The notes under the pieces: generated by a model
Database searches by the model: none
The model's input: the letters and a program-made list of their open reading frames with translations, nothing else
Told to the model about the DNA's origin: nothing
Assembly: GCF_003014555.1 (NCBI RefSeq)
Contig: NZ_PYGE01000017.1
Span: forward strand, 1-64,000
Length of the DNA stretch: 64,000 nt
Direction of reading: 5' to 3'
From: Haloactinopolyspora alba
Lineage (GTDB): Bacteria > Actinomycetota > Actinomycetes > Jiangellales > Jiangellaceae
Shown: positions 4,465 through 63,166 of the stretch, one piece after another
How positions within the stretch are numbered: the first letter of the stretch is position 1
Layout: the number at the start of each line of letters is the position of its first letter
Position numbers and translations under genes: made by a program

Positions 4465-5109
4465 GTGCCGAAGACGGTCATGCTCGTGGATGATCACGAG
4501 CTCATCCGCCAAGGCCTACGTCGCGCGTTCGAGCGCGACGTCGACTTCACCGTCGTCGGCGAGGCGTCCACGGTCGCCGAAGCACACCGGCTGGCCGACG
4601 CGACGCAGCCGACGGTCGCGGTCATCGACATCAGGCTGCCCGACGGCAGCGGCCTCGAGCTGGCGAAGGCGCTGCGCACCGCACGCCCGGACGTTGGTCT
4701 CGTGATCCTCACCATGTACGTCGGCGACGACCACCTCTTCGGTGCACTCGACGCCGGCGCCTCCGCGTTCGTCCCCAAGAGCGCGCCCAGTGACGAGGTC
4801 GTCTCGGCTGCCCGGCACGCCGCCGCCACCCCGTCGTCGTTCGTCGCCGCCGACCTCGCCGAGGCGATGCAGCGACGGATGCACCCCACCGGGCCCCAGC
4901 TGACCCGGCGCGAGCGCGAGGTCCTCGACCTGCTGGCCGACGGGCTCGGCGTGTCGAACATCGCTCGCAAGCTCTACATCAGCGAGTCGACGACGAAGAC
5001 GCACGTCTCCAAGCTCTACGACAAGCTCGGCGCGTCCAACCGCGCCCAGGCCATCATGGCTGCCGTGCGCGCAGGTCTGCTGGACGACGGAGACGCCGCA
5101 GCCGAGTGA
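4465..5109 (+). CDS. NarL/LuxR-family response regulator
   Basis: A 214-aa DNA-binding response regulator. The receiver domain holds the acidic pair D9-D10, phosphoacceptor D55 (VIDIRLPD), T83 and K105. The LuxR-type HTH follows in the C-terminal third, from LTRREREVLDLLADG to the KTHVSKLYDKLG recognition helix. The GTG start is six bases past the kinase stop and has the Shine-Dalgarno GGAGAGGGG at 4448-4456, so kinase and regulator form one operon. Its targets are not evident; the 46-aa membrane ORF downstream at 5282 is a possible one. Confidence 0.92.
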   Translation: MPKTVMLVDDHELIRQGLRRAFERDVDFTVVGEASTVAEAHRLADATQPTVAVIDIRLPDGSGLELAKALRTARPDVGLVILTMYVGDDHLFGALDAGASAFVPKSAPSDEVVSAARHAAATPSSFVAADLAEAMQRRMHPTGPQLTRREREVLDLLADGLGVSNIARKLYISESTTKTHVSKLYDKLGASNRAQAIMAAVRAGLLDDGDAAAE

Positions 5110-5117
5110 ACGGTACC

Positions 5118-5144
5118 GGTGACCCTCAGTGATCAGGGGTCACC
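5118..5144 (+). terminator. Stem-loop after the response regulator
   Basis: GGTGACCC at 5118-5125 pairs with GGGTCACC at 5137-5144 across an 11-nt loop, nine bases after the regulator stop. There is no U-tract, so it is a U-less hairpin of the kind often seen in actinomycetes rather than a classic intrinsic terminator. Confidence 0.4.
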
Positions 5145-5281
5145 CGTGGTGACGCGACTCAACCGTTCAGGCGATACGTAAGTAACCGGTCACGCGATCG
5201 ACGGAAAAGTGATCTGACCTCACGCTGGAAGGTAGCTGGTGCTGACCGTCGGCACCCGTACGGCCTTGGGGTGAGGCGATC

Positions 5282-52443: not shown

Positions 52444-53868
52444 ATGTTCACCAACCCCGACGAGCTCCTCAAGTTCGTCAAGGACGAGGGCGTCGAGTAC
52501 ATCGACGTCAGGTTCTGCGACCTTCCTGGGGTCATGCAGCACTTCAACGTGCCTGCCAAGGCGTTCGACGCGGACGCGATGGCCAACGGCCTGATGTTCG
52601 ACGGGTCGTCGATCCGTGGTTTCCAGGCCATTCACGAGTCCGACATGAAGCTCATGCCCGACCCCGCGACCGCGTTCGTCGACCCGTTCCGAACCGCGAA
52701 GACGCTGGTCATGAACTTCTCGATCGTCGACCCGTTCACCGGCGAGCCCTACAGCCGCGACCCGCGCAACATCGCCGCGAAGGCCGAGGCCTACCTCGCC
52801 AGCTCGGGCATCGCCGACACGTCGTTCTTCGGTCCCGAGGCGGAGTTCTACGTCTTCGACGACGTCCGCTTCGAAACAAAGCCGAACGCCGGCTACTACT
52901 ACATCGACTCCATCGAGGGCGCCTGGAACACCGGCCGGGTCGAAGAGGGTGGCAACCGCGGCTACAAGACCCGCTACAAGGGCGGCTACTTCCCCGTCCC
53001 ACCGGTCGACCACTTCGCTGACCTGCGCGACCAGATGAGCAACACGCTCACGGCCGCGGGCTTCGAGGTCGAGCGCGCGCACCACGAGGTCGGCACCGCG
53101 GGCCAGGCGGAGATCAACTACAAGTTCGATACGCTGACGCATGCCGCCGACCAGCTGATGCAGTTCAAGTACATCATCAAGAACGTCGCCTGGGAGGCGG
53201 GCAAGACCGCCACGTTCATGCCGAAGCCGCTGTTCGGCGACAACGGCTCCGGCATGCACTGCCACCAGTCGTTGTGGAAGAACGGCGAGCCGCTGTTCTA
53301 CGACGAGCTCGGTTACGGCGGCCTGTCCGACGCGGCGCGCTGGTACATCGGCGGCCTGATCAAGCACGCGTCGTCGCTGCTGGCGTTCACCAACCCGTCG
53401 GTGAACTCGTACCACCGGCTCGTGCCCGGCTTCGAGGCGCCGGTCAACCTGGTGTACTCGCAGCGCAACCGTTCGGCCGCGGTGCGGATCCCGGTCACCG
53501 GCACCTCGCCCAAGGCGAAGCGGATCGAGTTTCGCGTGCCCGATCCGTCCAGCAACCCGTACCTGGCGTTCTCGGCCATGCTCATGGCCGGCGTCGACGG
53601 CATCCGGAACAAGATCGAGCCGCCGGAGCCGGTCGACAAGGACCTCTACGAACTCCCGCCCGAGGACTACGGCAACATCGCCACCGTCCCGTCGTCGCTG
53701 CCCGAGGCGCTGGACGCGCTCGAGAACGACCACGAGTACCTGCTCGAGGGCGACGTGTTCAGTGAGGACCTGGTCGCGACCTGGATCGACTGGAAGCGCA
53801 CCAACGAGGTCGACCCGATCCGGCTGCGCCCGCACCCGCACGAGTTCGAGCTCTACTTCGACATCTGA
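52444..53868 (+). CDS. glnA: Type I glutamine synthetase
   Basis: A 474-aa GS-I subunit (dodecamer) making glutamine from glutamate and ammonia. Motifs: [11 protein letters not shown], the metal residues in [26 protein letters not shown], and the ATP-site region [10 protein letters not shown]. Adenylylation Tyr is Y402 in [11 protein letters not shown], so it is the GSI-beta type. I chose the ATG at 52444 because GAAGGAG (52431-52437) abuts an earlier ATG too closely. A GlnR-type box lies upstream. The integrated element begins just past the stop. Confidence 0.96.
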
Positions 53869-53897: not shown

Positions 53898-54980
53898 CTA
53901 GTTCACCACCTCCTCGTTCCTCAGAAATTCCTCAGTACGGTCGACCAGGACTGCCTCCACTGCGGTCCTGGTCGACTCGTCTGTGTCGGGCCAGAGGTGC
54001 GAGTACGTGTTCAGCGTCGTCGTCGCACTCGCGTGGCGCAGTCGGTGCTGCACCACCTTCACGTCAGCTCCGCTCGAGATGAGCAGGCTGGCGAAGTAGT
54101 GCCGCAGGTCCTGGTACCGGAAGCCGTCGGGCAGGCCCTCGACCTTGCCGCGTGCGGTGCGGAACGCTCGCTCCAGCTTCCACGGCCCGACCTGGCCGCC
54201 GAAGTCGTCGGTCAGGATCCACTCCCCCGGCCACCGGGCCACCTGCTGCGAGAGGGCGCTGACCAAGGTGTCCGACACGGGGATCGTGGTCTTCGACATC
54301 GCGGTCTTCAACGGCGCCGCCGGGTACTGCACGGCCGGCCGGATCTCGCGCTTGAGGAACACCACGTCGGCGACCCGCAGACCGCATGCCTCGCTGACGC
54401 GCAGGCCGGCGAACGCGCCCAGCAGGATCGCGACCCGGTAACGCTTCGGCATGGCGTCGTACAGACCCCACACTTGGGCCGTGGTGGCCACGTAGGGCCG
54501 CTGCTTACCCATGGGCGGGGAAGTCCGCCGGGAGCACGGGTTCCGCGCCAGCACGCCATCGTGGACGGCGTCACCGAGGATCTGGGACAGCCGGCCGTGC
54601 AGCGCGTAGACGTACGACGACTCATGCTCGTCGGCGATCAGCCTCGCGCACCACGCCTTGACGTGGCTCGGGCGGATCTGCGCGAGCGTCATCTCGCCGA
54701 ACTCGTCCTTGATCCGCGCAACGTGCACCTTGGCCTGGCGCACCGTCGACTCCCGGCGCGTGGCGTATCCCTTGAGCCACTCATCGCACCACGCCGACAC
54801 CGACTGCTTCCGGTCCCCCGGATCCGTCCACGTGCCCGTGGTCAGCTTCGCGAGCTCGCCGTCAAGCCAGGTCTGCGCATCGACCTTGCGCGTCGTCGTC
54901 TTCGTGAACTGCCGGCCGCCCGGGGTCGCCCGGTAGCGCGCCTGCCACCGGCCATTCGGGAGCTTCCGCACGGTGGCCAT
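53898..54980 (-). CDS. int: Tyrosine-type site-specific integrase
   Basis: A 360-aa phage-type integrase. Residues 1-55 match the Arg-rich arm-binding type (KLPNGRWQARYRATPGGRQF), followed by the core-binding helices and the catalytic domain. Catalytic segments: AFAGLRVSEACGL (Arg I), QDLRHYFASLLI (HxxR box, with Gln where His is usual), HASATTTLNTYSH (nucleophile Tyr). Start is the ATG at 54980, overlapping the upstream stop by one base (TGATG). It points its 3' end at glnA, the expected place for the attachment site. Confidence 0.93.
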   Translation of the reverse strand: MATVRKLPNGRWQARYRATPGGRQFTKTTTRKVDAQTWLDGELAKLTTGTWTDPGDRKQSVSAWCDEWLKGYATRRESTVRQAKVHVARIKDEFGEMTLAQIRPSHVKAWCARLIADEHESSYVYALHGRLSQILGDAVHDGVLARNPCSRRTSPPMGKQRPYVATTAQVWGLYDAMPKRYRVAILLGAFAGLRVSEACGLRVADVVFLKREIRPAVQYPAAPLKTAMSKTTIPVSDTLVSALSQQVARWPGEWILTDDFGGQVGPWKLERAFRTARGKVEGLPDGFRYQDLRHYFASLLISSGADVKVVQHRLRHASATTTLNTYSHLWPDTDESTRTAVEAVLVDRTEEFLRNEEVVN

Positions 54981-55531
54981 CAGTCGGTCTCCCCCGGCCC
55001 GCGGATCAGTCCTGCTTCCTTGGCCTGCTGGACGCGTCGAGCCGCGGTTCTCCGCGTGTACCCCAACAGCTGCTCCACGGCCTTGGTGGGCGTCCCCGTG
55101 CTGGCGTGCTCCTCGTAGACCTCGGCGACTCGCTCCAACTCGGCTGGATTCGCGCCGCGCGATCGTCTGGCGATAGCGGCGTCTACCTCGCCGATTGCCC
55201 CCCAGACCTCTCGTTCGTCGCTGAGGTCTACCTGCCTCAAGGCCCCGCGCGAGTCGGGCACGTATGCGTGGACCATGAACGCCTTCAGGGCCAGTTTGTC
55301 CATCGCGATTGTCGAGAGATCGACGGTACGCACGCCTCGACCTTCGGCCTTCGATTTCCAGACGAGTGACACGCACTCGGGCACACCGTCGCGGATCTCG
55401 AAGTCCGCGTAGAGGTCAGGTGCGCCCTTTTCGCCTACGGACTCCATCCTCGTCTTTCGCGGCACCTGGGCGTCGCCCAGTGGAACCAGGTCAAGGTCCG
55501 TGACGAGCCAGCGAACCCTACTGCTGCGCAT
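54980..55531 (-). CDS. Integrase-linked protein with C-terminal HTH-like tail
   Basis: A 183-aa protein. The first 120 residues (WLVTDLDLVPLGDAQVPRKT, then a beta-rich region) match no family I can name. The C-terminal 40 residues resemble a helix-turn-helix used in element repressors or excision control: KAVEQLLGYTRRTAARRVQQ. The ATG at 55531 has GGGAGG upstream. It is translated into the integrase (TGATG), so it may control integration or be a repressor. Alternative: a replication-associated protein. Confidence 0.6.
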   Translation of the reverse strand: MRSSRVRWLVTDLDLVPLGDAQVPRKTRMESVGEKGAPDLYADFEIRDGVPECVSLVWKSKAEGRGVRTVDLSTIAMDKLALKAFMVHAYVPDSRGALRQVDLSDEREVWGAIGEVDAAIARRSRGANPAELERVAEVYEEHASTGTPTKAVEQLLGYTRRTAARRVQQAKEAGLIRGPGETD

Positions 55532-55819
55532 CCGGTCTACCTCCCTACGCCAAAAGTAGGGGCCACGATGGCACCCATTTGGCATCGCCAACTCTGCCAG
55601 TGGCATGCCACCGTTGTCAACGGTGGATCGAGTGAGACGCCGTTGACAACTCAACAGAGCACCGCACGAGGACATCGGACTCGCCAGGACGCCGCGCTGG
55701 TACCGCGGTCGAGCGAGAGGGATGCCGGGGGAACCGGACAACGGGCGTGCGGCGGGAGCTGGGACCCGGTGAGCCAGCGACATCAACCGACAGACCTACC
55801 GCCCGAGGGGGCGACTCTC
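55532..55819. promoter_or_regulatory. Divergent control region with operator-like palindromes
   Basis: A perfect 19-bp palindrome with 9-bp arms (CCACCGTTG-T-CAACGGTGG) is at 55608-55626. An 11-bp part of it, GTTGTCAACGG, recurs inverted at 55640-55650, 27 bp away. TTGGCATCGCCAA, another small palindrome, is near 55580. A candidate minus-strand -10 (TACTTT) lies at 55559-55554. The region lies between divergent element genes and has no frame of its own, so it is the likely switch point for a repressor encoded by the element. Confidence 0.65.
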
Positions 55820-56005
55820 ATGAGCGAATTCATGACGACGAACGAACTCGCGGAGATGCTCCGCACCTCGCCCGAGACATGCCGCTACTGGCGCCACCGT
55901 GGAACCGGCCCGCGTTCATTCAAGGTCGGCCGGCGCGTGCTGTACGACCGCGCCGACGTCGAGGCGTGGATCAAGGCCGCCCGTGACGAGCAGGTGCCGG
56001 CCTGA
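55820..56005 (+). CDS. AlpA/excisionase-type HTH protein
   Basis: A 61-aa MerR-like DNA-binding domain of the AlpA/Xis type: MTTNELAEMLRTSPETCRYW, RHRGTGPRSFKVGRRVLYDR, and ADVEAWIKAARDEQ. Such proteins direct excision or act as small regulators in integrated elements. The ATG at 55820 is downstream of GAGGGGGCG. First gene of the plus-strand operon; its stop overlaps the next ATG (TGATG). Confidence 0.88.
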   Translation: MSEFMTTNELAEMLRTSPETCRYWRHRGTGPRSFKVGRRVLYDRADVEAWIKAARDEQVPA

Positions 56006-56298: not shown

Positions 56299-56645
56299 CG
56301 ACGGTCGAGTTCGCTACCAGGCTGCTCGAGCTCGGCCGGGCGCGCGGCCCGGTGCCGCGGTACGGCAGCAGCGAGTGGGAAGCGCTGGGCCCGACCGATC
56401 CGCGTCGCTTCGCCGCGGTCGTGGCCGCCGCTGAGTGTTGGCGCCGGGACAGCGAGCCGGAGGCGATCGCCGCACGGCTGCGGGCAGAGCTGGCCGAGGC
56501 CGACCTCTATGTCCGGTACCGGCTCGCTGAGGCGTCCAGAGACGTCGCCGGCGCGTATTCCGAGCTCGTCGACGAGCGCGGCCAGGTCGTGTCGTACGCC
56601 GAGCTCGTGCGGCGCCGGGCCGATCTGCTGGGGGTGGCGTCATGA
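56295..56645 (+). CDS. DUF2742-like protein
   Basis: A 116-aa protein with the DUF2742 pattern GPVPRYGSSEWEALGPTDPR followed by RFAAVVAAAECWRRDSEPEA, and a helical tail. The family is found in mycobacterial prophage-like elements of the phiRv1/phiRv2 type, next to integrase and replication genes. Function unknown. It overlaps both neighbours (ATGA). Confidence 0.65.
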   Translation: MTTVEFATRLLELGRARGPVPRYGSSEWEALGPTDPRRFAAVVAAAECWRRDSEPEAIAARLRAELAEADLYVRYRLAEASRDVAGAYSELVDERGQVVSYAELVRRRADLLGVAS

Positions 56646-57916
56646 GTGAGGTGACCACTCTGTCGGCGGTCGTGCCGGAGTCGGTGCAGTGGCTGTGGCC
56701 GGATCGCCTGCCGGTGGGGAAGCTCGTTGTCCTTGACGGGGACCCGTCTACGGGCAAGTCCACGCTGACGCTCGATCTTGCCGCGCGTGTGTCGGCGGGC
56801 AAGCCGTGGCCCGACGGCGCTGTCAGTGCGGGTCCGGCGGACGTGCTGCTGTTGTCGGCCGAGGACGGACTCGGCGACACCGTCCGGCCCCGGCTGGATG
56901 CCGCCGGCGCCGACGTCGCCCGGGTGCACGCGCTCGTTGACGTGCCGCTCACGGACGAGGACGAGGTCACGCACCGGGTGCCGCCACAACTGCCGCGCGA
57001 CATCGGCCACATCGAGCGGATCGTGCACGACTACGACGTCCGGCTGGTGGTCGTCGACGTCCTGATGGCGTTCCTCGCCGGCGGTGTCGACAGCCACCGC
57101 GATCAGGACGTGCGCGCCGTGCTGCATCGCATGTCGGTGATGGCCGAACGCGCCGGGTGCACGGTTCTGCTCGTCCGGCATCTCAACAAGGCCGGCGCCG
57201 GGTCACCGATGTATCGCGGCGGGGGCAGTATCGGCATCATCGGCGCGGCCCGCGCGGCATACCTCGTCGCTCGTGACCCGGACGACGAGGGCCGGCGGAT
57301 CGTCGCCGTGACCAAGTCGAACCTGGCCGTCGAGCCGCCGTCGTTGGCGTACCGACTCGTCGACGACCCCGACAACGGATGCGCCCGCGTCGAATGGGAA
57401 GCCGGCACCGTCGAGCACACCGCCGCGACCCTGCTACGCGGTCCTGTTGACGAGGACGAGCGCACCGAGCGCGACGAGGCCGCACAGTGGCTACGCGACT
57501 ACCTCGCCGACAGCGGCGGGCAGGCAGCGAGCAAGGACATCTTCAAGGCCGCCCGGACGGCCGGACACTCCGAGCGCACTCTCAAGCGCGCGAAGCAACG
57601 CGCCGGCATCACGCACCAGTCGAGCGGCTTCCCACGCACGACGTACTGGGAACTGCCCGCACAGTCGGGCCAGCAGGGCCAGGACACAAATCAGGTGGCC
57701 CAACTGGACCCCCGTGGCCCAACTGGACGTGACCAGCACAAATACGCGCCTCAGTCGGGCCAACCGACACAGTCGGGCCAGTCGGGCCACCCCACAGAGA
57801 GTGACCCGACTGGCGCCACCGTCTTCGACTTTCCCGCCCCGGCCGACGACTGCCCGCAATGCGGTTTCGGGCTCGCCACGATCGGCCACCGCGTCAACTG
57901 CAAGGAGACATCATGA
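56642..57916 (+). CDS. RepA-type AAA ATPase (replication/helicase-like)
   Basis: A 424-aa ATPase of the AAA_25/RepA group. Walker A is GDPSTGKST (about residues 33-41), a second motif VLLLSAEDGLGDTV, Walker B VRLVVVDVLMAF, and the HLNKAG segment typical of RecA-fold RepA proteins of plasmids and phages. After about residue 265 comes a winged-helix-like region (AASKDIFKAARTAGHSERTL) and a Gln/Ser/Pro-rich tail with repeats of QSGQ, ending in a CPQCG pair. Probably loads or drives replication of the element. Overlaps its neighbours by four bases. Confidence 0.78.
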   Translation: MSEVTTLSAVVPESVQWLWPDRLPVGKLVVLDGDPSTGKSTLTLDLAARVSAGKPWPDGAVSAGPADVLLLSAEDGLGDTVRPRLDAAGADVARVHALVDVPLTDEDEVTHRVPPQLPRDIGHIERIVHDYDVRLVVVDVLMAFLAGGVDSHRDQDVRAVLHRMSVMAERAGCTVLLVRHLNKAGAGSPMYRGGGSIGIIGAARAAYLVARDPDDEGRRIVAVTKSNLAVEPPSLAYRLVDDPDNGCARVEWEAGTVEHTAATLLRGPVDEDERTERDEAAQWLRDYLADSGGQAASKDIFKAARTAGHSERTLKRAKQRAGITHQSSGFPRTTYWELPAQSGQQGQDTNQVAQLDPRGPTGRDQHKYAPQSGQPTQSGQSGHPTESDPTGATVFDFPAPADDCPQCGFGLATIGHRVNCKETS

Positions 57917-59500: not shown

Positions 59501-59606
59501 CGGGGTGGGGGCGTCAGCGTCGCCCGGCCGCGGGCGTGCCCACGCGGTCCGGGAGCGATGGCCGAGCGGTGACCCGTCACCACGCCCGACCAGCGCCCCC
59601 ACCCCG
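59501..59606. other. Structured region with long-range inverted repeat
   Basis: CGGGGTGGGGGCG at 59501-59513 pairs with 59594-59606 over 80 nt, and inside that interval GGTGACCCGTCACC forms a further hairpin. The 145-bp space between the 228-aa gene and the HNH gene has no other frame. It may be a structured RNA, or DNA site such as a packaging (cos-like) region given the HNH nuclease and small terminase just downstream. Confidence 0.55.
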
Positions 59607-59637
59607 GCAACACACCGACCCACTACAGGAGGCCCCG

Positions 59638-60030
59638 ATGCCCCGTGCCTGGTCACCCTGCTCCGCCCCCGGCTGCCCGGAACTCACGCCGCCCGGCGTC
59701 AGCCGCTGCACCCACTGTTCCCGTACCGCCGACAAGACCCGCCCATCCTCCGCCGCCCGGGGGTACGCCAACCGCCCAGCATGGCGACGAGTTCGGGCAC
59801 GCCTGCTCGCTGAGAGTCCTTTCTGCACGTGCACTGACGACGGGCACGGGCACGGCTCGCGCTGCCCACAGGCCGCCACTGTCGCCGACCACTACCCGAC
59901 AACGCGTGCCGAGCTACTCAAGCAGGGTGTTTCCGATCCCGACGCGCTGCATCGACTGCGTGCGATCTGCGCGAGCTGTCACGGCAAGCACACAGCCGAG
60001 CAATCGCCAGGCGGATGGAACACGCGATGA
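59638..60030 (+). CDS. HNH endonuclease
   Basis: A 130-aa HNH nuclease. N-terminal Cys pairs (CSAPGCPE, CTHCSR) suggest a zinc knuckle, and the HNH core is VADHYPTTRAELL followed by ALHRLRAICASCHGKHTAEQ. AGGAGG six bases before the ATG fixes the start. In cos-type phages and satellites an HNH nuclease sits beside the small terminase and helps to cut or package DNA; the terminase small-subunit gene follows here. Confidence 0.85.
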   Translation: MPRAWSPCSAPGCPELTPPGVSRCTHCSRTADKTRPSSAARGYANRPAWRRVRARLLAESPFCTCTDDGHGHGSRCPQAATVADHYPTTRAELLKQGVSDPDALHRLRAICASCHGKHTAEQSPGGWNTR

Positions 60031-60171: not shown

Positions 60172-60540
60172 GTGAGCGAGTCGACACCGAGGGCGCCTCG
60201 AGGCACCGGAAACGCCGGCAAACGGCTCTGGAACAGCGTCGTCGAGGACTACGACCTCGACCAACACGAGCTGTCGTTGCTCGGCGAGGCCGCCCGCGTC
60301 ACCGACAGACTGGACGCGCTCAACGCCGTGCTCGCCACCGAGGGCGTCATGTCGCCGGCCGGCGACGGCAAGGTGCATCCGGCGCTGGTCGAAGCGCGAC
60401 AGCAGGAGATCACGCTCGCGCGGCTGCTCGCTGCTCTGCGCATGCCGTCCGGCGAAGAGGGCGACCAGCAGGCCAGCGCCCGGCCGCAGCGCCGCGGCGG
60501 TGCCCGTGGCGCCTACGGCATCCGAGGTGCGGTCTCGTGA
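60172..60540 (+). CDS. Phage terminase small subunit (P27-like)
   Basis: A 122-aa protein with the pattern of P27-family small terminases: a charged start, GKRLWNSVVEDYDLDQHELS, then LLGEAARVTDRLDALNAVL, KVHPALVEARQQEITLARLL and a Gly/Arg tail. The family binds packaging-site DNA. No large terminase follows. GTG start with AGAGGGGG upstream. The 141 bp between the HNH gene and this gene hold no frame. Confidence 0.65.
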   Translation: MSESTPRAPRGTGNAGKRLWNSVVEDYDLDQHELSLLGEAARVTDRLDALNAVLATEGVMSPAGDGKVHPALVEARQQEITLARLLAALRMPSGEEGDQQASARPQRRGGARGAYGIRGAVS

Positions 60541-61062: not shown

Positions 61063-61602
61063 TCAGCGAACCGGGTGTGCGTCCATGAACGTGCCGAGCG
61101 CGTCGAGCGCCTCGCCGAGGGCGCGCACTTCTTCGACCGTTACGGCTTCGGAAACGCCACTCGCGCGGCGCCGGTAGGCACGTTGCCGACAGGCCGACGA
61201 GCAGAATCGGCGGTCCGTCCGGCCGGTGAGCTCGGTGCCGCACCCCTCGCACGCCGTTACGGCTGACGAAACGTCACTCGTCCTGGCCTTGCTCGCCCGC
61301 ACCGTGCACGCTTTCGAGCAGGTGACGTACTTCATCCGGGGATGTCGGCCGCGGATCACGGTCCGACTGCATCCAGCGCACGGGGTCGGCTCGGTCGGCG
61401 CGGTGCCGCCATACAGTCCCATGACGACCGGATCGGCATGGTTGTCGCCGAGTCGGTAGCTCTGTCCGCCTGGCCGCCAGCACTCACGGCAGATGACGAA
61501 GTCCGAGACGAAGCGCCCCCGGAACGGCCCGATTCTGCCCTCGACGCGCAGGACCAGCTCGCCCGGACCCGGGTCATGCCCACACCACAACGGCGTTTCC
61601 AT
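61063..61602 (-). CDS. Zinc-ribbon protein
   Basis: A 179-aa protein with several Cys pairs: CRECW, CAGCSR, CSKAC, CEGCG and CSSACRQRAYRRRA, the last resembling a known zinc-ribbon/DNA-binding tail. The ATG at 61602 starts METPLWCGHDPGP; a TAGCGT -10-like element lies 7 bases ahead, so it may be leaderless. It is the only minus-strand gene between the plus-strand operon and the hairpin region. DNA-binding regulator of the element is plausible; targets unknown. Confidence 0.65.
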   Translation of the reverse strand: METPLWCGHDPGPGELVLRVEGRIGPFRGRFVSDFVICRECWRPGGQSYRLGDNHADPVVMGLYGGTAPTEPTPCAGCSRTVIRGRHPRMKYVTCSKACTVRASKARTSDVSSAVTACEGCGTELTGRTDRRFCSSACRQRAYRRRASGVSEAVTVEEVRALGEALDALGTFMDAHPVR

Positions 61603-61648
61603 AGGCGTAACGCTACCGGACCGACTGACGTTTCCGTAGCCGTAACAC
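61137..61648. repeat. Four copies of a GTTACGGCT..GGAAACG motif around the zinc-ribbon gene
   Basis: A 17-20-bp motif occurs at 61629-61648 and 61594-61613 (minus orientation, upstream of the zinc-ribbon gene) and at 61137-61156 and 61254-61273 (plus orientation, inside the gene). The two upstream copies are 35 bp apart. The motif is an imperfect palindrome (GTTACGG-CTA-CGGAAAC), as expected of a dimer site. Confidence 0.65.
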
Positions 61649-61716
61649 GCCCAACCCGGGCCATCTTGCCGGCGGCGCACGAACTCACGTCAGGGGGCCG
61701 GTAGCCTGAAGGTCAG

Positions 61717-61760
61717 GTGTTCCTGCCCTGCCACACGGGAGAGGGACAGGGCAGGAACAC
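61717..61760. other. Perfect 14-bp inverted repeat
   Basis: GTGTTCCTGCCCTG at 61717-61730 and CAGGGCAGGAACAC at 61747-61760 flank a 16-nt loop. It opens the gene-free 61681-62675 region. It may be a terminator, an origin-related hairpin or a protein site; no U-tract. Confidence 0.7.
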
Positions 61761-61945
61761 ACCCGACCTGGGCACGACTCGGTCTAGAGGTGTCGGCCGG
61801 CCCGGCGCCTATGCTCACAAGGACGAGACAGGCCGACCGACACTGGCCGCACCGTACCGGCCGCCGGGTGTCGGCGCATGGGAATCGCAAGGATCCGCGA
61901 CGACCGGGGTTCGAGCACCGTCCATCCCCCCCAGGCCGGAACCGA

Positions 61946-61981
61946 TTGACCTGCACCCGGCGAAGACCGGGCGCAGGTCAA
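61946..61981. other. 15-bp hairpin with one mismatch
   Basis: TTGACCTGC-CCCGG (61946-61960) pairs with 61967-61981 around a 6-nt loop, with one mismatched position. Nearby at 62000-62040, CCGCGGTTC recurs twice. No frame covers this part. Confidence 0.6.
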
Positions 61982-62114
61982 CCCCGGCCACACGACCGCG
62001 GTTCAACCGCCGGTGTTACGACGGTGCTCACCACCGCGGTTCGCCCAGGGTCGGCCGTCGGTCTCAACCGTTACCGTCAGGGCAACGGATCGCAGCACGG
62101 GGCCGACGATCTGC

Positions 62115-62381
62115 ATGGTCAATCTGACCATTCAGCTCCCCGCCGCCCGCGCCCGGGCAGGACGATCTCGCTGGATCAACTGGCGCAGATGAGCCACTCC
62201 CCGCCGCCCGCGCCCGGGCAGGACGCTATTGGAGATTCTTCCAATATCTCGGCATGGCCTCCCCGCCGCCCGCGCCCGGGCAGGACCTGCGAGGTGCGGG
62301 AAATCCCGCACCTGACCAGCTCCCCGCCGCCCGCGCCCGGGCAGGACACTTCCTGACGTGCACGTCCGTAACGGACGTGCA
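62115..62381. repeat. CRISPR-like array of 28-bp repeats whose spacers are hairpins
   Basis: Four identical 28-bp repeats start CTCCCCGCCGCC and end GGGCAGGAC, at 62136-62163, 62197-62224, 62259-62286 and 62320-62347 (periods 61, 62, 61). Spacers are 33, 34 and 33 bp. Each spacer and both flanks form a different hairpin: 62115-62131, 62165-62190, 62227-62246, 62292-62313 and 62359-62381. The repeat has an internal stem (GCCCG/CGGGC). No cas gene lies in the window. The region 62382-62637 that follows has no gene. Confidence 0.85.
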
Positions 62382-62637
62382 GCGGCTGGGTTCACTTCTG
62401 GCTGCTGCGGACAGACTGGGGGCTTCCCCCTCCCTCCGGTCGGGGATCACCCACTGCGCTTCGCCCCGCCCAGCACCTCCGGACCGACGTCGTCGTGACG
62501 CCGGCCTGTGCCGTATGTCGTCGCCGGTGATCAACCGACGCCGGCCACGTGCCCTTTCGTGGCAGCGCATGAGGGCAGCCTGTCTGTTCGCTCACCGGCC
62601 AGTGAGCACGGAGGACGAGGGTTGTAGCTCCGCTCAG

Positions 62638-62669
62638 AGCCCCGGCGGCTTTCGACGGCCGCCGGGGCT
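62638..62669. terminator. Strong 12-bp hairpin before the minus-strand operon end
   Basis: AGCCCCGGCGGC (62638-62649) and GCCGCCGGGGCT (62658-62669) pair perfectly around an 8-nt loop. It is placed 7 bp past the stop of the gene ending at 62676, as expected for a terminator of that minus-strand operon. Confidence 0.75.
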
Positions 62670-62675
62670 GGTCGG

Positions 62676-62999
62676 TCAGACGAGGGTCGTCAACCGGGTG
62701 TGTGCGGCATCGAGCGCGTCACGTACACGCGTAAGATGCCTCTCACTGAGCACGACGGAGACGTGCCGTAGACCGGCCGCGGGGACGAGCACGACCGCCG
62801 GCCGCGGGTGGTCCTCGTCGTGTCCGACGAGCAGGACTTGCAGCGTGCACGGGCCGCCCGGGTGCACACCCTCGACGATCTCGCTCACGAGGTACGCGAC
62901 GTGCTGACCGTCCGCGTGCCCACCTTCGACCTCGTCGCACCACAACACGTCACACGCGCCCGACTGGCGCTGATACGCGCCACTGCCACGGCCGCCCAT
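62676..62999 (-). CDS. Small protein of unknown function (107 aa)
   Basis: A 107-aa protein starting MGGRGSGAYQRQSGACDVLW, then a helix and a strand pair (HVAYLVSEIVEGVHPGGPCT, LQVLLVGHDEDHPRPAVVLV), ending in a helix with TRLTTLV. No family recognised. The ATG overlaps the stop of the 55-aa membrane gene by one base (TGATG). Last gene of a minus-strand run of four. Confidence 0.6.
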   Translation of the reverse strand: MGGRGSGAYQRQSGACDVLWCDEVEGGHADGQHVAYLVSEIVEGVHPGGPCTLQVLLVGHDEDHPRPAVVLVPAAGLRHVSVVLSERHLTRVRDALDAAHTRLTTLV

Positions 63000-63166
63000 C
63001 ACGGGCCGCCCGTCGGGCCGCACGACTCGTTGCCATGGACGTGGCAGTTCCACCCGGTGTCATCCTCGGCAGGCTCACGGCTGTCGAGGACGACGCCGGC
63101 CACGATCAGCACGGCCATAGCCGCCAGGATCGACAGCAGCAGCACCAGCGCGTCACGCCGGCTCAC
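62999..63166 (-). CDS. Small single-pass membrane protein (55 aa)
   Basis: A 55-aa frame: a basic start, one hydrophobic helix (VLLLSILAAMAVLIVAGVVL), then an acidic tail with two Cys (NCHVHGNESCG). The positive-inside start predicts the tail outside. It starts in a GTGA overlap with the gene upstream and ends in TGATG. A small membrane protein in such elements often modifies the host cell surface, but there is no evidence here for a function. Confidence 0.6.
   Translation of the reverse strand: MSRRDALVLLLSILAAMAVLIVAGVVLDSREPAEDDTGWNCHVHGNESCGPTGGP

Follow-up and report, generated by a model that had tools for sequence, protein, structure and literature searches.

An orphan array of identical 28-bp repeats and mostly hairpin-forming gaps in a phage-satellite-like island of Haloactinopolyspora alba

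A 28-bp repeat, CTCCCCGCCGCCCGCGCCCGGGCAGGAC, is present in four 100% identical copies within a stretch of 64,000 nucleotides from Haloactinopolyspora alba (positions 1 to 64,000 of contig NZ_PYGE01000017.1, hereafter the window), beside gaps that are mutually unrelated in sequence and have a form in common. The hairpins beside these repeats are real. Unusual as the array is, it stands as a lone orphan, found in this genome only. Our preferred reading, which we hold tentatively, is that a phage-satellite-like island carries, in its accessory arm, a structured non-coding module whose 28-mers would act as binding sites and whose hairpins would act as spacers.

Layout of the array and its hairpins

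The four repeat copies occupy 62136..62163, 62197..62224, 62259..62286 and 62320..62347 on the + strand, and the gaps between consecutive copies measure 33, 34 and 33 bp, giving periods of 61/62 bp. This layout agrees with the initial annotation, which had described four identical 28-bp repeats at 33-34-bp spacing. The repeat has G or C at 25/28 positions, an internal 5-bp stem (GCCCG/CGGGC) with a 4-nt loop, and an inner palindrome, GCCCGGGC. Scanning of the 5.5-Mb genome for the repeat with up to 3 mismatches returned only the four array copies, and a candidate degenerate extra repeat at 62095-62107 is weak, with 9/13 matches that are equalled by 0.56% of window positions.

A protein-coding repeat was considered and rejected, as periods of 61/62 shift the reading frame and codon-position GC is flat in the five ORFs that overlap the array (GC3 of 0.66-0.76, vs 0.84-0.85 in the AAA, HTH and terS genes); the latter is a weak test, the HNH ORF also having a GC3 of 0.74. 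Known RNA families were not found in the window at Rfam gathering thresholds, the tRNA scan returned none, and promoter and terminator scans detected neither, the promoter consensus being that of sigma-70 only. Type III antitoxin repeats and REP/BIME elements were also weighed as candidates.

Five positions adjoin the repeats, and four of them hold a perfect stem of at least 7 bp. Upstream of repeat 1, the hairpin at 62115..62131 has a 7-bp perfect stem (62115-62121/62125-62131) and a 3-nt loop; gap 2 carries a 7-bp perfect stem with a 6-nt loop at 62227..62246 (62227-62233/62240-62246), gap 3 a 9-bp perfect stem with a 4-nt loop at 62292..62313 (62292-62300/62305-62313), and a 10-bp perfect stem with a 3-nt loop lies downstream of repeat 4 at 62359..62381. 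The first and last of these flank the array and lie outside its true gaps. In gap 1 (62164-62196) there is only a weak bulged stem at 62165..62190, with two G-U pairs of the + strand; its longest perfect stem is 4 bp, a length attained by 45% of real type I-E CRISPR spacers. Because gap 1 is not exceptional, the initial annotation went too far in calling every spacer an inverted repeat: its stems of 7, 7, 9 and 10 bp are there, and as spacers the description fits gaps 2 and 3.

The excess of hairpins was measured against two backgrounds. In the rest of the window, 1.65% of 5637 33-mers have a stem of at least 7 bp, which gives a binomial probability of 3.7e-7 for four positions out of five. 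Among real type I-E spacers such stems are present in 9/582, for a binomial probability of 2.8e-7; this control comes from 33 loci examined, 30 of which yielded arrays of I-E dimensions, 32 in all, and from these came the 582 distinct spacers. The downstream hairpin position was scored on 40 nt and the others on 33, a small advantage. For the true gaps alone, the presence of such a stem in two out of three has a p of 7e-4 against the real I-E spacers. Nowhere else in the window are such stems as closely packed, the array having four in 280 bp vs at most three elsewhere.

Folding energy gives a more uneven picture across the five positions. Compared with the 582 real spacers, only two positions are exceptional, gap 3 (0.7%) and the downstream hairpin (0.9%), whereas the other three are ordinary (28%, 43% and 53%). 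Against GC-matched window stretches on the + strand, the five positions in order fall at 6.4%, 8.9%, 6.9%, 0.14% and 0.24%, and against mononucleotide shuffles their p values are 0.023, 0.064, 0.045, 0.001 and 0.011. For the 300-bp stretch as a whole, none of 200 dinucleotide shuffles is as stable on either strand (z of -4.4 on the + strand and -4.3 on the - strand, scores that owe part to the repeats themselves), so the earlier suggestion of structure beyond chance is upheld on both strands.

The host island and the search for relatives

The array lies in an integrated element of ~10.4 kb (53842..64253) whose ends are 27-bp exact copies of the 3' end of glnA, attL at 53842-53868 and attR at 64227-64253 (L026 4227-4253), just outside the window. 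The chromosomal genes upstream of 53.87 kb are, as we take them from their translations, lipB, lipA and glnA, and this block is retained in relatives. The alignment of the att sites continues to about 64421, with 71% identity over 199 columns, core included, and the integrase-end-like sequence up to about 64421 suggests remnants of a second element.

Within the element, a tyrosine integrase gene (53898..55376, - strand, ORF as listed, matches starting at residue 133) is followed by genes for an HTH_17 or excisionase-like protein (55568..56005, + strand, ORF as listed, match in the C-terminal part) and an AAA_25 replication helicase-like protein (56642..57916, + strand). The 3' part of the AAA_25 gene contains four iteron-like CAGTCGGGCCA direct repeats at 57662-57789, a candidate origin. 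Further along are genes for an HNH endonuclease (59536..60030, + strand; phrog_589, 5.4e-13), a terminase small subunit (60172..60540, + strand; phrog_1496, 1.5e-21), a protein with a weak HNH-like match (61063..61680, - strand; phrog_1271, 1.8e-9) and a protein of no assigned family (62676..63053, - strand), which has weak matches (2.7e-4 and 9.2e-4) in 2/21 other genomes of the order. In G011, one of these two genomes, the weak relative of this last gene and a gene for a related terminase small subunit are 3.2 kb apart. The element also encodes a DUF2742-like protein, its match falling just under the cut-off. No capsid or tail match was found among the element ORFs scanned, the two genes to the right of the array being outside the PHROGs scan, and PADLOC returned no match for seven element proteins. 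An integrase, replication functions and a terminase small subunit are thus present in an island of ~10.4 kb with no full virion set, and because of this gene make-up and size the island appears phage-satellite-like, an assignment drawn wholly from gene content.

The array itself is located in the right arm of the island, within a non-coding stretch of about 1 kb that separates the genes at 61063-61680 and 62676-63053 (both - strand); it lies 1.6 kb past terS and 4.2 kb from the AAA gene. Both of its non-coding flanks are related to other mobile-looking DNA. Flank A (61721..61891, + strand), which includes a hairpin, has a counterpart of 79% identity elsewhere in the genome, in a prophage-like region on a different contig (G000:C31:35612-35788, - strand; L122 9612-9788, - strand), where the segment lies between two convergent ORFs. 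In the 10-bp part of the flank A hairpin, comparison of the two copies by eye shows 6 pairs kept, 2 changed on both sides and 2 broken. For flank B (62409..62536, + strand), the counterpart is intergenic DNA of a relative with 80% identity (G016:C32:173640-173768, - strand; L123 9640-9768, - strand), possibly part of an integrative element, to judge from the ORFs there. Reading of 1.5 kb around each counterpart revealed no array, and weaker matches of flank B in other family genomes are short and were taken for chance. The relationships of the two flanks place the array within a mosaic of non-coding pieces. The same non-coding kilobase also holds longer perfect or near-perfect hairpins at 61717-61760, 61946-61981 and 62638-62669, with arms of 14, 15 and 12 bases.

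Searching for the repeat in other genomes, a check that the initial annotation had proposed, revealed no second array in 22 family genomes, an 84,980-species collection, IMG/VR, phages or plasmids. With up to 3 mismatches, the repeat is found among the 22 family genomes in its own genome only. The 21-base repeat core has 6 single occurrences in the 84,980-species collection, none of them in an array when the context of all 6 was viewed. Exact patterns for the repeat core, the three gaps, the downstream hairpin and both flanks each gave no match in IMG/VR, and a search of IMG/VR with the AAA protein gave no result. In blastn searches with the array, phages and plasmids gave nothing at 1e-5. At E values up to 10, there were 17 phage records, on the repeats, the upstream hairpin, gap 3 into repeat 4 and the downstream hairpin, the top one being that of Escherichia phage TL-2011b, whose 35-base match at 62108-62142 (E 0.007) covers the upstream hairpin and the edge of repeat 1, and 91 plasmid records, with a best E of 0.3 among the best 20 of the 91. 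We rejected these matches as relatives of the array and took them for chance. The open-access literature search likewise found no family of this kind. The initial annotation had spoken of a conserved unit with covarying hairpins, a claim that is not supported, as no homologous second copy was found for comparison.

Related islands were approached through the terminase small subunit, which has matches at 29 places in 25/393 genomes of the class, its own included. Of the 28 other places, 20 were viewed with their flanks (one contig being only 3.3 kb), and none of the 20 showed an array of this type, so that it does not belong to the core of such islands. The G011 stretch with relatives of both the terminase small subunit and the 62676-63053 gene has none, and another of these loci, L064, has a 12-base triplet and nothing array-like.

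The array being non-coding, confined to one genome and without a relative found, it could be a neutral tandem repeat whose hairpins are coincidental or by-products of fold-back mutation. We regard this as very unlikely, since four exact 28-mers and a hairpin excess with p about 3e-7 need a cause. Moreover, plain tandem duplication cannot produce the array, because its gaps are unrelated in sequence.

Comparison with CRISPR arrays and other stem-loop arrays

Identical 28-bp repeats with unrelated 33/34-bp gaps are the layout of a type I-E CRISPR array. Type I-E arrays of Actinobacteria have 28-29 bp repeats, 32-34 bp gaps and a stem within the repeat, all of which are also seen here, and genuine arrays of the same family (L158-L160, in G019, G020 and G021) equal the array in their dimensions, with 28-bp repeats and mostly 33-bp spacers. 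These family arrays hold 10-62 repeats, lie beside cas1 and occur in 3/22 family genomes. Both cas1 and I-E cas2 are present in the same three family genomes. Of 1276 control 28-mers matched in GC and stem, 99.7% by best score and 99.5% by mean score align less well with I-E repeats than the array's repeat does on the + strand (p about 0.003, with only I-E repeats compared). One explanation that draws on these likenesses is a type I-E mini-array that has diverged or become an orphan, or else a mimic of such a repeat carried by a phage, like a Racr-like decoy; for the reasons that follow, we consider it unlikely.

The sequence and the layout of a I-E repeat never occur together in one orientation. 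By eye, the + strand repeat starts with CTCCCCGC like I-E repeats and has its stem misplaced, whereas the - strand repeat has its stem in place, and there 7.5% (best score) and 2.4% (mean score) of controls score equally. The I-E 3' handle (ATNNTCC-like) is absent from both orientations, judged by eye, so neither combines I-E sequence, a stem near positions 6-11/16-21 and the handle. The array's own genome (G000) gave no match to Cas1 (PF01867) or I-E Cas2 (PF09707), the two cas proteins searched for. Stems of at least 7 bp, present in two of the three true gaps, are a feature of 1.5% of real spacers.

Most real CRISPR spacers also have no known protospacer. Here, no convincing protospacer was found in phages or plasmids by blastn, or in IMG/VR by exact search with the three gaps and the downstream hairpin, and the TL-2011b match spans a hairpin and a repeat edge and not a bounded gap. 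The gaps are unlike ordinary acquired spacers, as first noted, in their hairpin excess over the 582 I-E spacers as well as in the lack of phage or plasmid matches at 1e-5 and of exact IMG/VR hits; the initial annotation had named phage- or plasmid-matching spacers together with cas genes as the outcome that would overturn it, and neither a convincing match nor Cas1 or I-E Cas2 was found.

Viral mini-arrays carry repeats identical to those of the host, according to a review (PMC11656645). Racrs and viral mini-arrays (PMC10651486, PMC11656645) resemble this array in having short repeat units in a phage-like element without cas genes; Racrs, however, are solitary repeat units vs the four copies here, and the 28-mer does not closely copy any of the I-E repeats tested. 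A CRISPR array is thus unlikely, only the 28/33 dimensions fitting well. There is a caution in this for annotation, as dimensions alone mimic a CRISPR array while most other features tested disagree.

The nearest published likeness that we found is TIGR-Tas, whose arrays are described (PMC12045711) as tandem stem-loop units with stems that are 'variable but consistently palindromic', in loci found in phages and proviruses. In TIGR units, two variable spacers lie within the stems, between box C/D motifs, whereas the stems of this array close over 3-6 nt. In addition, the four units here all have one and the same segment between their hairpins. The Pfam Nop model has no match in the array's own genome; this model may miss Tas proteins, its controls having matched in 4 archaea only.

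Other clusters of stems were sought in loci of at least 3 kb, 1.18 Mb in all, with overlaps counted and the best cluster taken per locus. Besides CRISPR loci and this array, three loci (L078, L074 and L067) have at least 4 stems in 280 bp. The L067 cluster, which we take to be probable RNase P RNA, was dropped as a comparable array. The other two hold 8 perfect stems apiece, 7-10 bp long and spread over about 400-520 bp, at 15140-15535 of L078 and 14304-14825 of L074. L078 has relatives in two 11-kb Mycolicibacterium phages, Alyssa1 (L194) and JSForest1 (L195), which have hairpin arrays at 4951-5258 and 4921-5264 respectively. The hairpins lie inside an HTH gene in both phages and in the corresponding ORF of L078. 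Some neighbouring hairpins share a stem (3/8 in L078, 4/10 in JSForest1 and 2-3/8 in L074) and the remainder differ; the shared stems would be as in initiator-binding iterons. At roughly corresponding places in different elements, the hairpin form is kept and some stems differ, as with TGGCTCA/TGAGCCA in JSForest1 and GTGCGGG/CCCGCAC in Alyssa1.

Like the present array, those of Alyssa1, JSForest1, L078 and L074 are dense, tandem series of 6-10 bp stems, many of them different, in satellite-sized elements, and hence hairpin arrays are not foreign to satellite-like elements. Unlike it, they have no 28-bp repeat between hairpins and include groups of neighbouring stems that are alike. The long identical repeat between hairpins is the distinguishing mark of this array.

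Possible roles of repeats and hairpins

A constant sequence that alternates with a mostly constant shape is most economically read as a series of binding sites with hairpins to separate them. On this reading, the 28-mers, identical in all four copies, are constrained in sequence and most likely represent one protein-binding site, while the gaps would be constrained in length (33-34) and, mostly, in shape (a short hairpin), and not in sequence. Hairpin gaps would then hold the putative binding sites apart, and if transcribed, the chain of hairpins could act as an RNA scaffold or decoy. The binding site, its protein partner and the spacer role of the hairpins are what we infer from this pattern. 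Several features argue for a structured module of this kind: repeats are exact while gaps share form and not sequence, hairpins exceed two backgrounds and the 300-bp fold has z-scores of -4.4/-4.3, the 61/62 periods break the frame, and the non-coding flanks are common to other mobile-looking DNA at 79-80%. Against it stand the single array in a single genome, one gap in three without a clear hairpin and the three positions out of five that are ordinary by folding energy; furthermore, perfect stems fit DNA palindromes equally well as RNA.

If gaps constrained in shape are real, they would be a cheap natural way of spacing identical binding sites. In that case, the location within a phage-satellite-like island would point to a part in the contest among satellite, helper phage and host. 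A further-reaching proposal, which we consider quite unlikely, is that of a new type of array, with a fixed repeated sequence and intervening segments that are selected for length and hairpin only, the reverse of CRISPR logic. If true, the satellite would encode a scaffold of RNA (or DNA) on which one putative protein-binding site is displayed several times, possibly so as to disarm a host or helper-phage protein.

For the structured module that we prefer, a transcribed RNA form is slightly more likely than a DNA site, transcription itself being presumed. A cis-acting DNA site, serving as replication iterons or in partition or packaging, with 28-mers bound by protein as duplex and palindromes that bend or extrude, is possible though doubtful. 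Repeat spacing of 61-62 bp corresponds to 5.8-5.9 helical turns, the 28-mer has its inner palindrome, and the hairpin arrays of L078, L074, Alyssa1 and JSForest1, with many mutually different stems, offer a precedent in other satellite-like elements. Those arrays, however, have no long identical repeat between hairpins, and some of their neighbouring hairpins share a stem, as initiator-binding iterons would, whereas here none do. Of the functions that the initial annotation had listed, structured RNA, a DNA site and a new system remain candidates, and an origin and a packaging site are somewhat less likely. An origin role is weakened because the element has other iteron-like repeats inside its replication gene (57662-57789); the 28-mers are identical as iterons would be, yet they lie 4.2 kb from this AAA gene, itself with its own repeats. 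A packaging site is made less likely by analogy with Alyssa1, where the terminase gene adjoins the end of the record, while the array here lies 1.6 kb past terS.
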